A stretch of 64,000 nt of DNA from Hydrogenovibrio thermophilus (lineage in GTDB: Bacteria > Pseudomonadota > Gammaproteobacteria > Thiomicrospirales > Thiomicrospiraceae): the NCBI RefSeq assembly GCF_004028275.1, contig NZ_CP035033.1, positions 2,538,501 through 2,602,500 on the forward strand. The letters run 5' to 3'. A program made the position numbers and the translations under genes. The notes under the pieces were generated by a model. It made no database searches and was not told where the DNA came from. It worked only from the letters and a program-made list of their open reading frames with translations. Of the stretch, positions 2,675 through 7,776 are shown piece by piece; positions within the stretch are counted from its first letter, which is position 1; each line of letters begins with the position of its first letter.

Positions 2675-3382
2675 CTAGAACTTGTAGTACTTCCAACCTG
2701 TTTGCATACGGTTGACGATTTCGTCGATCGCGGTTTTATCCGACTCGACACCGTCAATCAACTTGGCCGGCTCGCCTTTGGCGGCTCGACGTTCCAAAGC
2801 CCGTTGACAGGCAATCAACTTGAGGTTGTCGTATTGTGCCAACAGGCTGATGATGGCTTCACGGCTCTGATTATCCTGCTCGAACAACTCGATGCCATGG
2901 TCGTTGGCCACGATTTCGATTTGCATCGGCGGCACACCCTCCTGCGCTTTGTTTTCCGCCAACAGGGTGCTGGCTTTTTGCAAAAGCGCTTGGGTTTTTT
3001 CCGGCTGGTTGGAATCGATATGCAACAGAATCCGACTGTCGGTCGCCTCATTCTGCACCACCGACACACCTTGCATCCCCGAATCGGCGGGCGAATAAGG
3101 CAATGCAAAGACGCCCAATGCCACCACCAGCGCAACCGATGCAGCCGCGGCCCAGTAAGTTCGGTTAGACCCTTGGCGTTCAAACGTCGGACGCGGCGGA
3201 ACCGGCACCTTTTGATAGTGCTCCAGCATCTGCTGTTTGATTTTACGCAGCTCGCACACCTCATGGCGCAACGCCGGATCCAACTTCAATGCTTCTTCAA
3301 ATCGCTGGCGTTCCTGCAACGATAATTCGCCGTCCAGGTAGGCATGGATTTCCTGCGGTGTCGTTTTCAATTTTTCCGTCAT
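2675..3382 (-). CDS. Anti-sigma factor with periplasmic DsrE-like domain
   Basis: Seen: residues 1-50 match the cytoplasmic anti-sigma helix bundle (IHAYLDGELSLQERQRFEE, then DPALRHEVCELRK); the HxxxCxxC zinc motif of ZAS proteins is incomplete (one Cys). A single membrane helix lies at about 74-95 (AAAASVALVVALGVFALPY). Residues 115-235 read like a DsrE/DsrF-fold domain: ILLHIDSNQPEKTQALL, MQIEIVANDHGIELF, LKLIACQRALER, and the end WKYYKF. That domain aligns by eye with the two exported DsrE-like proteins encoded divergently next door, including the Cys-x-x-x-Leu core. Its ATG overlaps the sigma-factor stop (ATGA), typical of sigma/anti-sigma pairs. Inference: the outer domain senses a sulfur species or binds a free DsrE-like partner and releases the sigma factor. 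No biochemical precedent is known to me. Confidence 0.8.
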   Translation of the reverse strand: MTEKLKTTPQEIHAYLDGELSLQERQRFEEALKLDPALRHEVCELRKIKQQMLEHYQKVPVPPRPTFERQGSNRTYWAAAASVALVVALGVFALPYSPADSGMQGVSVVQNEATDSRILLHIDSNQPEKTQALLQKASTLLAENKAQEGVPPMQIEIVANDHGIELFEQDNQSREAIISLLAQYDNLKLIACQRALERRAAKGEPAKLIDGVESDKTAIDEIVNRMQTGWKYYKF

Positions 3383-3957
3383 TTCGCGCTACTCTTCTTT
3401 AAAACGACCACATTGTCTGGATAACTGGGAATCAGTTTCTCACTGGTGACCAATTTCTTCAACTTTTCCCGAGCTCGGGAAAGACGGCTCATGACCGTGC
3501 CAACCGGCACTTCGGTGATTCCTGCCACTTCCTGATAGGAATAGCCTTGTAGGTCGACCAGAACGATGACTTCCCGTTGATCGATCGGCAGATTGCCGAT
3601 GGCATCATGAATGTTCTGAATCGTCTGTTTGCGGATATACAAGGATTCAATCGATTCCGTTTTCAGTTGCTCGCCCACTTCGGCGACGTCCACCTGATGC
3701 CAACGGGCATTTTGCCGACAGTTATCGTAAAACAGGTTATGCATGATTTTGCACAACCATCGGTCCACGTTTTCAAAACACGTCAGTTGATCGGCTTTCT
3801 GCAACGATTTCAACATAGTGTCCTGAACCAAATCTTGCGCCAAGGACTCATCCTGACTCCAGGCGTAAGCAATTCGGTAAAGATTGGCGTAGTGCGATTC
3901 CAGCACCGCATTCAACTTCACCTGATTGGTTTTTAATTTAATCCAATTGCTAATCAT
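3379..3957 (-). CDS. ECF-type RNA polymerase sigma factor
   Basis: Extracytoplasmic-function sigma-70 family protein, 192 residues. Region 2 is YRIAYAWSQDESLAQDLVQD and following; region 4 is IGNLPIDQREVIVLVDLQG, then YSYQEVAGITEVPVGTVMSR with SRAREKLKKL, the -35-reading helix-turn-helix. Start ATG at 3957 has a good ribosome site (AAGGGAG, 6-7 bases upstream). Translation is coupled to the downstream anti-sigma gene by an ATGA overlap. It is divergent from the DsrE-like/porin operon across a 208-bp gap, so that operon is the obvious first target, but no sigma-dependent promoter could be fixed by eye. Confidence 0.93.
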   Translation of the reverse strand: MISNWIKLKTNQVKLNAVLESHYANLYRIAYAWSQDESLAQDLVQDTMLKSLQKADQLTCFENVDRWLCKIMHNLFYDNCRQNARWHQVDVAEVGEQLKTESIESLYIRKQTIQNIHDAIGNLPIDQREVIVLVDLQGYSYQEVAGITEVPVGTVMSRLSRAREKLKKLVTSEKLIPSYPDNVVVLKKSSAK

Positions 3958-4034
3958 TCAAACTCCCTTTTTTTCATCATAGGCAAAATTTTCGACCGCG
4001 ACAAGCCTTTGTTTTACCTATCAGAATATAACTG

Positions 4035-4044
4035 TTTCATGAAA
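4035..4044. promoter_or_regulatory. Small palindrome in divergent promoter region
   Basis: TTTCATGAAA is a perfect 10-bp palindrome roughly midway in the 208-bp gap between the sigma factor and the DsrE-like gene. A second small hairpin (CGGAA, 4-base loop, TTCCG) lies near 4100-4113. The gap must carry both promoters. Neither element is recognised as a known operator. Confidence 0.25.
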
Positions 4045-4165
4045 TAAGGAGCCGTTATCCCATCATAGAAATAACCATCTCAGAAAGTTGGAATAAAGCC
4101 GGAAGGTTTTCCGTTATTGGGGAGAGCGCTCTTGAAGACGCATGAAACTTTGGAGGAAATAAAAC

Positions 4166-4627
4166 GTGTTCAAACCTAAAACAAAACTGTTCATTCTTAG
4201 CTGGCTCGCCACTTTGTTGTTTTCAGCCAACATTATGGCCGCAGCCGAGGAACCGCCATTGCCGGATACTTTTGCCACTCACAAAGTCGTCCTGCAAATC
4301 AGCGACCCGGATCCATTCAAGCAGACTTTGGTGCTGAATGTGGCCAACAATCTGATGAAGCACTACGATGCCGGCGATTTGGATTTGGAAATCGTCGCCT
4401 TCGGCCCCGGCTTACGTTTGATGCTGGAAGGCAACGTCAATACGCCACGGATTAAAGCGCTCATGAGCGCCGGCGTGCGTTTCAGCGGCTGTGCCAATAC
4501 CCTGAAGCATTTCACCAAAATTCTGGGAAGCAAACCAGCTTTGACCGAAGGCGTGACCGTGGTGCCAGCCGGTGCGGCCCGTATTCTGCAGTTGAATGCC
4601 GCCGGTTATCAAATACTGAAACCTTAA
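4166..4627 (+). CDS. Exported DsrE-like protein 1
   Basis: 153 residues with a signal peptide (MFKPKTKLFILSW, hydrophobic core to about 24, cleavage after the IMAAA region). The mature part is a single DsrE/DsrF-like domain: HKVVLQISDPDPFKQTLVL, LDLEIVAFGPGLRLML, VRFSGCANTLK with the family cysteine, GVTVVPAGAARI, and GYQILKP at the end. DsrE-fold proteins carry or sense persulfide sulfur; exported single-domain forms are of unknown role. GTG start with strong ribosome site (TGGAGG, 9 bases upstream). First gene of an operon with a second DsrE-like protein and a porin; divergent from the sigma/anti-sigma pair, whose anti-sigma ends in a related domain. Confidence 0.88.
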   Translation: MFKPKTKLFILSWLATLLFSANIMAAAEEPPLPDTFATHKVVLQISDPDPFKQTLVLNVANNLMKHYDAGDLDLEIVAFGPGLRLMLEGNVNTPRIKALMSAGVRFSGCANTLKHFTKILGSKPALTEGVTVVPAGAARILQLNAAGYQILKP

Positions 4628-4656
4628 TCAAACGACTCTAAGAGTCCGAGGAGACC

Positions 4657-5142
4657 ATGATGCTTAACGTCACCAAATTGTTTGTCCTGACCTTGCTGTC
4701 CGGCTGGGTGCTGCTGTCTTCAGCGCAAGCCTCCGAAGGCTATGGCCATCAAAAAGTGGTTTATCACATCAATTATGACGATGCCAAAAAGCAGTCCAGC
4801 ACCTTACGTAACATCCAGAACCACATCAATGCGGTCGGCGCGGATAATCTGGACATCAAAGTCGTGCTGCACGGCAACGGCCTGTCTTTACTGCTGAAAG
4901 AGGATGCCCTGAAAAACGTGCCGAAATTCAAGGCCGCCAATGCCACCACGGAGATGCAACAGAAGGTGGACAGTCTGCGCATGCAAGGCGTGGTGTTTGA
5001 TGTCTGCGCCAACACCCTGAAGGGCCGGAACGTCGATTACAAACGTGATCTTTACGACGTTGACCAGAAGGACATCGTGCCCAGCGGCGTGGCCGAACTG
5101 GCACACCTGCAAGAAGAAGGGTTCGTTTACCTGAGACCTTGA
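4657..5142 (+). CDS. Exported DsrE-like protein 2
   Basis: 161 residues. Signal peptide MMLNVTKLFVLTLLSGWVLL with cleavage near SSAQAS; mature DsrE-like domain with HQKVVYHINYDDAKKQ, LDIKVVLHGNGLSLLL, VVFDVCANTLKG (family cysteine), DIVPSGVAELAHLQ and the terminal GFVYLRP. Clearly paralogous to the preceding gene and to the C-terminal domain of the anti-sigma factor; it has an extra charged loop (KFKAANATTEMQQKV) before the cysteine segment. Ribosome site GAGGAG before two adjacent ATGs (4657, 4660). Twenty-nine bases separate it from the upstream gene. Confidence 0.88.
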   Translation: MMLNVTKLFVLTLLSGWVLLSSAQASEGYGHQKVVYHINYDDAKKQSSTLRNIQNHINAVGADNLDIKVVLHGNGLSLLLKEDALKNVPKFKAANATTEMQQKVDSLRMQGVVFDVCANTLKGRNVDYKRDLYDVDQKDIVPSGVAELAHLQEEGFVYLRP

Positions 5143-5208
5143 ACCACCTAACCCTTAAATAAACTGAATAGACCCTAAAAACAATAGAAAACACTAGAGA
5201 AGAGGCTT

Positions 5209-6522
5209 ATGAAAAAACAATTTTTAACCAAACTGTTACCGGCCGCCATCATCGCGGCTTGCACCACCACTCCGGCGCACGCCACCAACTGGTTGATGCT
5301 GCAAGGCACCGAACCCGCCGACCAAGCGCCAAGAGCCAAGCTTTGGGGCTTTGTGCAACTGGACTATCAGCACACCGATGACACCAAACTGAAAGCGGGC
5401 CCAGGTAAAGGCAAACCGGCGGCCTTTAACCAAATGGCCCCTCAATTGGACAGCGCCAGCGGATTCAATGTCAAACGTGCCCGTATCGGGGTACGCGGCA
5501 ACAACCTTCCGTTGGATAAAAAAGTGAACTATTTCCTGCTGGCGGAATTCGGGAACAACGGTATCACCACAGGCAAAGGCGCATCCCAAGGTCAACTGAC
5601 CGACGCCAGTGTCACCTTAAATTACATTCCGGGTGCACGCGTACGCGCCGGTTTATTTAAAACACCCGGCTCGGAAGAAGGTCTGCAAGCCGCTTTCGTC
5701 GCCAATTACATCAACTTCTCGAATGCCACCGATCGCTTGCTGTTGGAAAGAGACTTTGAATACGAAAGCGGAAATACCGAGCGGGATGGCCCGGTCGGCG
5801 CTTTCCGGGATACCGGGGTGCAGGTATTCGACACCTTTAATCTCGGCGGTTGGGACACCAGTTATGCGGTTATGATCGGCAACGGCAGCGGTTTAGCCGT
5901 CACCAACAACAATGGAGATATGGACACCTACCTGTACGCCTCCACCGAAAAGGTTTTTGGCGACTCCAAAGGACCGCGCCGCCAAGGGTTTAAGCTGTAT
6001 GCCTGGAACCAAAGCGGGAAGCGAGATTACAATGATGGCACCCCGACATCACCGGGCACAGAACAGAGTCAAAACCGTACTCGTAGCGGTGTAGGGACCA
6101 CCTTCTTTAACGGCAAATATCGAATGGCGGCCGAATACATCATGGCCGACGGGATGATTTACGGCGGAACGTCTGGCGCGAGAACGCCAGACGATGGTGG
6201 CACCTTCAGTGTCTTACCGGATCAGAAAGCCGACGGTTATTACGTCAGTTTGGGGTATCGTCCGATTTCAACCGTGGAACTGGATGTGCGTTATGACAAA
6301 CTGAACAGTGCCACCGATAAAAACGGTACGGGCGGTGCCAATGCCGAGCGTGTATTCGAAACCACAACGCTGGGCGCACAATACTTCTTCAATAAGAAGA
6401 CGTCCCTGAAAGCCAACTACGAAATCCGCAGCGTTGACGCACCGAACTCTAACGATACCGTCAATGACATTCTGGATTCCATCGATAATCGTATTTCCGT
6501 ACAGCTAACCGCTGTTTTCTAA
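5209..6522 (+). CDS. OprO/OprP-type outer-membrane porin
   Basis: 437 residues with a signal peptide (MKKQFLTKLLPAAIIAACTT, cleavage after PAHA). The mature protein has alternating beta-barrel strands, an early LWGFVQLDYQHTDDTKLK strand and FNVKRARIGVRGNNLPLDKK typical of the phosphate-selective porin O/P superfamily, and a C-terminal phenylalanine (VQLTAVF) as barrel assembly signal. Likely a trimeric anion-type outer-membrane channel; substrate unknown. It sits 66 bp after the DsrE-like pair and is followed by a strong terminator, so the three genes probably form one operon under the divergent ECF sigma factor. Confidence 0.9.
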   Translation: MKKQFLTKLLPAAIIAACTTTPAHATNWLMLQGTEPADQAPRAKLWGFVQLDYQHTDDTKLKAGPGKGKPAAFNQMAPQLDSASGFNVKRARIGVRGNNLPLDKKVNYFLLAEFGNNGITTGKGASQGQLTDASVTLNYIPGARVRAGLFKTPGSEEGLQAAFVANYINFSNATDRLLLERDFEYESGNTERDGPVGAFRDTGVQVFDTFNLGGWDTSYAVMIGNGSGLAVTNNNGDMDTYLYASTEKVFGDSKGPRRQGFKLYAWNQSGKRDYNDGTPTSPGTEQSQNRTRSGVGTTFFNGKYRMAAEYIMADGMIYGGTSGARTPDDGGTFSVLPDQKADGYYVSLGYRPISTVELDVRYDKLNSATDKNGTGGANAERVFETTTLGAQYFFNKKTSLKANYEIRSVDAPNSNDTVNDILDSIDNRISVQLTAVF

Positions 6523-6548: not shown

Positions 6549-6571
6549 GGCCTGCTTTGCAGGCCTTTTTT
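6549..6571 (+). terminator. Rho-independent terminator after porin
   Basis: Perfect 7-bp stem GGCCTGC / GCAGGCC with a TTT loop, followed by six T. It closes the DsrE-like/porin operon. Confidence 0.9.
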
Positions 6572-6579
6572 ATATCCAC

Positions 6580-7776
6580 TTATTTATGATCATAGAACTG
6601 CGCTTCCAGCATAAAGCGAATGCTGGCGTCGGCTTTATTGAAATTGGTATCATCGTAAAAACTGATTTCCGGATCGATCTCAAAGAACATCCAGTCCTTA
6701 TAAATTCGCTCCCGCCAATTCACCCCAACCGAATAGGAACTTAAATTGAACCCAGGAGCATCCGGAGTCCAGTTCCAGTTCCAGCCAAGGTAATAGGCTA
6801 AGCCACGATGCACATTGACCTGATCGACAAAAATGAAATTCTGCGACAACGAATAGTTTTGATCTTTATCTTTCCAGTCCGCTTCGGTTTGCGAACGGAA
6901 TAAAAACTGGTTATTGATTTGGCGGTCGAACACCTGACGGGAATTCAGCCCCACACCTTTATAACTTTCCCAATACAAATCCTGATACATCCGACTGTAC
7001 CATTTAGGGCTGAGCTGCCACTTGTAATGCAACTTGATCCGCGCATAGGGATCCGGTTCAATAATATTACGAAAATTCAACCCCACATCGACAAAGGTAG
7101 CGGTAAAACCGGCAATGTCCAACGCATAACGCAAACCGACATTGGTGCCATCATCCTGCTGAGGCGAAGTGGCGCTCGACGCATTATTCAAAGGTGAATT
7201 ATTGCCCGTTCCGGCCGTGCCAGCCGCCCCACCGGATGACAACTCCTTGATATTATCTTCCGCCGAACTGACAATCAAATGCCAGCGCCGATTGGTTCTT
7301 GGTAGGGCGATTTTGGTTCGAAATTTCACTTGAGTATCGATACTGCCGTCGGAATGAAACCGGACCGGCGTCATAATGTCCAAACGACTGCCTTTGGTTC
7401 GGTCAAAGGAGTCGTCGGTTCCGAAAAAGTCATCCGCCTGTTCGCCGAAATCATCTACCTTATGACTGAGCCAATCGTGCATGGTGTCCAGATACTTGAA
7501 AGTGAAGTTCAATAACGGGCTTTCCGTGCCTTCAAAAAAATAGGTTTTCTCCGGTGGCGGTTGAGTCGGTCCCTCCGATGTAGGCGGTGCATTGTCCGGG
7601 GCAGGCGATGACGAAGGGGATGCAACGGTTTCGGTCTGTGATTTGGCTTCGGCCGCGGAAGAATCGGATGCCGAATCGGCGGAATCCTCGGAAAAGACTG
7701 TTTGCGGTATGCACCACGCAATCCCGCTCAAAAGCAGTATAATGATTCTATTATTATGCAATCGAAAATGCCTCAT
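6580..7776 (-). CDS. Putative outer-membrane beta-barrel protein, unknown function
   Basis: 398 residues with a signal peptide (hydrophobic IIILLLSGIAWCIPQTVFS). Residues about 30-75 are a low-complexity Ser/Ala/Pro/Glu linker. The rest has alternating aromatic strands (HYKWQLSPKWYSRMYQDLYW, YLGWNWNWTPDAPG, SYSVGVNWRERIYKDWMFFE), which suggests a barrel. I do not recognise a family. The ATG at 7776 has no ribosome site and overlaps the divergent gene's ATG by two bases; the in-frame TTG at 7761 has GAGG nine bases upstream and still leaves a signal peptide, so it may be the real start. It converges with the porin operon. Confidence 0.7.
   Translation of the reverse strand: MRHFRLHNNRIIILLLSGIAWCIPQTVFSEDSADSASDSSAAEAKSQTETVASPSSSPAPDNAPPTSEGPTQPPPEKTYFFEGTESPLLNFTFKYLDTMHDWLSHKVDDFGEQADDFFGTDDSFDRTKGSRLDIMTPVRFHSDGSIDTQVKFRTKIALPRTNRRWHLIVSSAEDNIKELSSGGAAGTAGTGNNSPLNNASSATSPQQDDGTNVGLRYALDIAGFTATFVDVGLNFRNIIEPDPYARIKLHYKWQLSPKWYSRMYQDLYWESYKGVGLNSRQVFDRQINNQFLFRSQTEADWKDKDQNYSLSQNFIFVDQVNVHRGLAYYLGWNWNWTPDAPGFNLSSYSVGVNWRERIYKDWMFFEIDPEISFYDDTNFNKADASIRFMLEAQFYDHK

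Follow-up and report, generated by a model that had tools for sequence, protein, structure and literature searches.

An anti-sigma factor with a DsrE-type outer domain, a candidate sensor of periplasmic sulfur in sulfur-oxidising Gammaproteobacteria

The window analysed here is a stretch of 64,000 nucleotides from the single-contig genome (2.61 Mb) of Hydrogenovibrio thermophilus (NZ_CP035033.1, positions 2,538,501 to 2,602,500), which encodes two soxB, soxY and RuBisCO. We studied positions 2675-6522 of the window, where an extracytoplasmic function (ECF) sigma factor gene and the gene of an anti-sigma factor with a DsrE-like outer part lie on the minus strand, divergently from two genes for small exported DsrE-like proteins and a porin gene on the plus strand. 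All five genes were found at the coordinates given by the original prediction, which a model had made from the DNA letters alone, and family matches bore out the layout that it described. Both the architecture of this module and its link to sulfur oxidation are well supported. The features of the locus are the following:

2675..3382, minus strand: anti-sigma factor of 235 aa, with a cytoplasmic anti-sigma domain (residues ~1-60), one transmembrane helix (~76-94) and a predicted periplasmic DsrE-like domain (117-235) that contains C192
2678..3034, minus strand: DsrE-like outer domain of the anti-sigma factor (residues 117-235), with an AlphaFold2 pLDDT of ~96, a Foldseek match to 1l1s at TMt 0.88 and a hidden Markov model match at E=1.5e-17
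3379..3957, minus strand: ECF sigma factor of 192 aa, overlapping the anti-sigma start by 4 bases, with Pfam and TIGR matches and a place in the clade of partner sigma factors
3976..4004, minus strand: tentative sigma-70-like site (TTGTCG-N17-TATGAT) upstream of the sigma gene, such sites being as frequent in the region as by chance
4090..4116, plus strand: ECF-type promoter-like element GGAATAAA-N14-CGTTA before dsrE1, the single exact copy in the genome
4166..4627, plus strand: exported DsrE-like protein 1 (DsrE1), GTG start, signal peptide-like N-terminus, C109
4657..5142, plus strand: exported DsrE-like protein 2 (DsrE2), signal peptide-like N-terminus, C117, Pfam DsrE match of 43.8 bits
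5209..6522, plus strand: Porin_O_P family porin of 437 aa (Pfam match)
6549..6572, plus strand: terminator-like hairpin with a T run, 3' of the porin gene

The original prediction had aligned the outer part of the anti-sigma factor by eye with its two exported neighbours, and had named structure prediction as a way to verify a DsrE fold. Neither the Pfam DsrE model (PF02635), even at E<=1, nor a plain BLASTP comparison with DsrE1 and DsrE2 gave a significant match for this outer part. As a single sequence compared with the PDB by phmmer, however, the domain matched MTH1491 (1l1s) with E=1.3e-6, and a family profile built from 28 homologues matched the same protein with E=1.5e-17, followed by 2pd2 and 8uja. 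With hhalign, it was aligned at 99.1% to the DsrE1 family and at 97.2% to the DsrE2 family. The AlphaFold2 model of residues 117-235 reached a pLDDT of about 96, and its six Foldseek matches at E<=0.001 were MTH1491, ST0148, a designed DsrE-like chain, BT1422, YchN and DsrEFH. A DsrE-type domain is well supported by profiles, model and structural matches; the alignment by eye was right, although it could be proved by profiles only. Chance resemblance was rejected by profile, structure and conservation. The absence of a flag from Pfam and NCBIfam models would explain why the domain has gone unnoticed. As for the soluble partners, DsrE2 passed the PF02635 gathering cut-off of 22.7 (43.8), DsrE1 fell just under it (21.0) and the anti-sigma factor of one relative scored 17.2. 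Despite this score DsrE1 folds as DsrE by structure, and it is related to DsrE2 (E=2e-16).

In order to determine how widespread the fusion is, we searched 369 gammaproteobacterial genomes and, separately, 299 genomes across the phylum. An anti-sigma factor fused to a DsrE domain was present in 64 of the 369 genomes, which belong to 39 families. The phylum sample yielded the full fusion in the window genome and in two others of the same class only. For four further phylum members (G549, G582, G598 and G669; L261-L264), the match to the profile was confined to its DsrE half and began near the membrane helix. In FastTree phylogenies, all 105 distinct fused domains grouped in a single clade (support 0.74) to which neither DsrE1 nor DsrE2 belonged, and the partner sigma factors also formed one clade (support 0.85), the one odd member coming from a locus cut by a contig end. 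These single clades suggest, with modest tree supports, that one fusion event gave rise to the family.

The original prediction had also proposed a survey of genome neighbourhoods for the five-gene order. Among 107 fusions in 105 loci, on contigs some of which end nearby, the sigma gene was adjacent to 106, a DsrE gene was near 77 and a porin gene near 64, with both near 59 and either near 82. Since the same layout recurs in many genomes, it is not due to chance. The genes that flank the module vary between genera while the module itself is constant. Within the window's genus, five genomes that lack the anti-sigma factor also lack a strong DsrE1 match, and six others that have it all carry DsrE1 at the same place, which indicates that the module is gained or lost as a unit. 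Two loci (L208, G259:C26; L233, G143:C22) carry tandem pairs of sigma and DsrE anti-sigma genes, in which each sigma gene has its own GGAATA-N16-CGT and a DsrE2 gene follows one of the pairs. One relative has a second DsrE1-like copy with one in-frame TGA (G005:C1:302273-302719, minus strand). Genes for a MauG-type di-haem cytochrome c peroxidase and a rhodanese lie near the pair at L212:4495-7056, and similar-looking genes at L216:6691-8644.

The sigma factor matched Sigma70_r2 (43.4 bits) and Sigma70_r4_2 (65.8 bits) above the Pfam cut-offs, as well as TIGR02937 (85.6 bits vs a cut-off of 42.9), and contains sigma regions 2 and 4 only, as ECF factors do. The N-terminal domain of its partner matched zf-HC2/anti-sigma (24.3 vs a Pfam cut-off of 22.2 bits) and is encoded next to the sigma gene, as in class I anti-sigma factors. 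The zinc motif Hx3Cx2C was found in 0 of the 105 distinct homologues, which makes this a non-zinc anti-sigma factor, outside the ZAS subset; a zinc-cysteine redox switch of the RsrA/ChrR type was rejected on the same ground. Because a single hydrophobic segment (~76-94) follows a basic stretch, the DsrE domain should lie outside the membrane according to the positive-inside rule. Both DsrE1 and DsrE2 begin with N-termini that read as typical export signals. The porin matched Porin_O_P (PF07396, phosphate-selective porin O and P) with 37.7 bits vs a cut-off of 20.9, and a sequence comparison with solved structures gave no match for it.

As the original prediction had noted, the three DsrE-like proteins keep a cysteine at the same place: C192 in the anti-sigma factor, C109 in DsrE1 and C117 in DsrE2, each invariant within its own family. 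C192 is aligned with the cysteine of the CSNTL/CENSI motifs of 1l1s and 2pd2, the conserved position of the DsrE fold family. Together with W230, it was invariant in 105/105 distinct fusions, in which D17, A81, G90, H121, G163 and G229 were at least 95% conserved. An intramolecular disulfide is not the general mechanism, because 25 of these 105 proteins have no cysteine besides C192. Judged from this conservation pattern, single-thiol chemistry or an intermolecular bond remain as the options for C192.

We also analysed the region upstream of the divergent genes. The element GGAATAAA-N14-CGTTA (4090-4116) lies about 50 bases upstream of the dsrE1 start. Across all loci, its core GGAATA-N16-CGT occurred 77 times in 107 kb of target-upstream strand-bases vs 17 times in 2.47 Mb elsewhere, so that its density was about 105 times higher upstream of the targets, among loci that are related and not independent, whereas the reversed motif gave 0 and 5 sites, respectively. 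The 77 sites precede DsrE1 (31), DsrE2 (3), porin (6) and sigma genes (37). Genomes of the window's genus have the element in front of the DsrE operon only; their sigma gene has the tentative sigma-70-like site instead, and a similar sequence was found upstream in the close relative L038. The sigma gene of other lineages carries its own copy of GGAATA. Control of the divergent dsrE1-dsrE2-porin operon by the sigma factor, as originally predicted, is made probable by this conserved promoter-like element. A wider regulon in the window genome was rejected, since a relaxed motif gave 20 sites vs 15 for its reversed control, which leaves the full element at 4090 as the one credible site. At four loci (L044, L046, L053 and L054), sigma, anti-sigma and DsrE2 genes are co-directional, with no porin gene and no GGAATA element upstream, and control may differ there from that at other loci.

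The link to sulfur oxidation was assessed by means of SoxB, called with TIGR04486 at E<=1e-100. SoxB was present in 63 of the 64 fusion genomes vs 87 of the 305 others (Fisher p=6.5e-28, with kinship not corrected). RuBisCO was present in 58/64 and 118/305, respectively. The SoxB association held within RuBisCO-positive (p=5e-11) and RuBisCO-negative genomes (p=7e-6), and a link to autotrophy instead of sulfur was rejected as weaker and mostly explained by SoxB. Physical linkage was also observed. At L239 and L240, from one genus, the genes for sigma factor, anti-sigma factor, soxX, soxY, soxZ, soxA and soxB lie on one strand (families were scored for L240, and L239 was assigned by the same open reading frame order and sequence starts). 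At L243, a GGAATA element is located 37 bases upstream of soxX in a soxXYZAB-dsrE1 operon that adjoins the module. The gene divergent from the pair at L199, L216 and L220 encodes a metallophosphatase of the SoxB/5'-nucleotidase superfamily, preceded by the element at L199 and L220; that of L216 scored 180 bits with the SoxB model, below the cut-off.

We regard it as rather likely that the module is a transmembrane sulfur-sensing switch, in which reduced sulfur would be detected at the DsrE cysteine in the periplasm and the sigma factor set free as a result; the ligand, the cysteine chemistry and the release step are what we infer. Thiosulfate, polysulfide or sulfur would provide sulfane sulfur, which, whether it arrives unaided or by way of the soluble DsrE proteins, would modify or occupy the pocket around Cys192, and this event would shift the conformation or the partners of the domain so that the sigma factor is released, possibly by regulated proteolysis. 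Once free, the sigma factor would transcribe the dsrE1-dsrE2-porin operon and, in other lineages, also sox genes and the gene that encodes it, a step that the conserved promoter element supports. Family membership suggests that binding or relay of periplasmic sulfur falls to the exported DsrE proteins, which may act as carriers, as co-sensors or in both roles, and that thiosulfate-like anions enter through the anion-type porin. A more specific form of this proposal, a widespread and unrecognised sulfane-sulfur sensor in which persulfidation of the single external DsrE cysteine frees the sigma factor while soluble periplasmic DsrE carriers pass sulfur to the Sox reactions and also inform the sensor, is proposed more tentatively. 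Several points weigh against the switch. The SoxB link was observed among genomes that are related, as an association and not in independent trials, and the predicted target in the window genome is one operon without sox genes. Nor does a DsrE fold by itself imply sulfur transfer, since MTH1491 and ST0148, the relatives of known structure nearest to the domain, have no known function. Moreover, no protease or other sigma-release mechanism was identified.

Three paralogous domains with the same invariant cysteine in one module, a DsrE gene near 77 of the 107 fusions, and the presence of DsrEFH (2hy5) and TusBCD (2d1p) among the fold matches would also suit a domain that serves as a dock for DsrE1 and DsrE2 and not as a chemical sensor. 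Homo- and hetero-oligomers are known for DsrE/Tus proteins; here soluble DsrE, free or loaded with sulfur, would join the domain in a hetero-oligomer and so determine the activity of the sigma factor, a form of feedback on the carrier pool. However, a linked soluble partner is not required at every locus, since at several of them the fusion is accompanied only by porin or metallophosphatase genes, with no DsrE gene in the vicinity, and we judge such occupancy sensing unlikely. Somewhat less likely again is a general sensor of envelope thiol or oxidative stress, whose cysteine would react with sulfite, reactive oxygen species, metals or disulfides and which sulfur oxidisers would keep owing to their reactive periplasm; sulfite would then be the most likely ligand, as the analogy with ECF26 suggests. 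This would fit the single cysteine of many members and the promoter consensus shared with the sulfite-responsive RpoE1 and RpoE4 (PMC3511301, PMC6180224, PMC6527743), but in place of repair or sulfite oxidase genes the targets comprise sox genes, DsrE proteins and an O/P-type porin, and the alphaproteobacterial-type anti-sigma factors found lack the DsrE domain. That the domain binds no sulfur at all, being structural or a pocket for another small molecule, with the SoxB link due to shared lineage or lifestyle, seems very improbable. The fusion genomes are indeed related and mostly autotrophs (RuBisCO in 58/64), and the functions of the nearest solved relatives are not known, but the association with SoxB holds inside the RuBisCO strata and spans 39 families, and the module is physically linked to sox operons.

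Beyond the porin gene, 6580-7776 (minus strand) encodes an exported protein of 398 aa without a Pfam family, with a weak NCBIfam match only and no PADLOC hit, and genes of similar size flank the module in several genomes of the same genus. A defence system at this locus was rejected, as PADLOC gave no hit.

How sulfur oxidisers sense inorganic sulfur is poorly known, and a recent paper states that knowledge of sensing and response in these organisms is scant (PMC10451225). Among the closest known systems are ECF26 pairs, namely RpoE1-EcfR1 and RpoE4-EcfR4 of Sinorhizobium meliloti and SigE of Starkeya novella, which likewise combine an ECF sigma factor with an anti-sigma factor of one transmembrane helix, respond to sulfur compounds and control periplasmic sulfur oxidation genes (PMC6180224, PMC3511301, PMC6527743). 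In Sinorhizobium and Starkeya the signal is sulfite and the genes under control encode sulfite oxidases (PMC6180224, PMC3511301, PMC6527743), whereas the targets here are DsrE proteins and a porin. GGAATA-N16-CGT matches the ECF26 consensus of GGAATA at -35 and GT at -10 (PMC6180224), so on its promoter the sigma factor is probably ECF26-like. The outer domain of those anti-sigma factors has been described with some RsiW similarity and not as DsrE (PMC6180224). In 56 alpha-, beta- and other loci from our search, those with an anti-sigma factor matched its N-domain only, bar one cut-off locus.

MTH1491 and ST0148 (1l1s, 2pd2) share the fold, the length and the position of the conserved cysteine, but are free single-domain proteins of unknown function with no anti-sigma fusion. 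The DsrEFH and TusBCD sulfurtransferases, cytoplasmic hetero-hexamers of sulfur relay, have the same fold at lower similarity, whereas the DsrE proteins of the module are exported or membrane-anchored and have no DsrF or DsrH partner. To our knowledge, no role has so far been assigned to exported DsrE proteins, and the module would give them one. FecR-type cell-surface signalling also joins an ECF sigma factor, a membrane anti-sigma factor and an outer-membrane channel, but the module has no TonB-dependent receptor with a signalling domain, its channel being a Porin_O_P porin. SoxR and sHdrR of Hyphomicrobium are sulfane-sulfur-responsive repressors of thiosulfate oxidation (PMC10451225, PMC12423496); they share sulfur-responsive control, but are ArsR-type repressors and not an extracytoplasmic sensor on an anti-sigma factor. 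No paper joining DsrE with an anti-sigma factor was found in a literature search that left most subscription journals and the large ECF classification papers uncovered. The original prediction knew of no characterised system of this type. This does not hold for ECF control of sulfur genes, which is not new because members of ECF26, a group with the same promoter consensus, respond to sulfite, but the DsrE sensor and its breadth appear to be new, and the module offers a specific, testable sensor candidate for inorganic sulfur in sulfur-oxidising bacteria.

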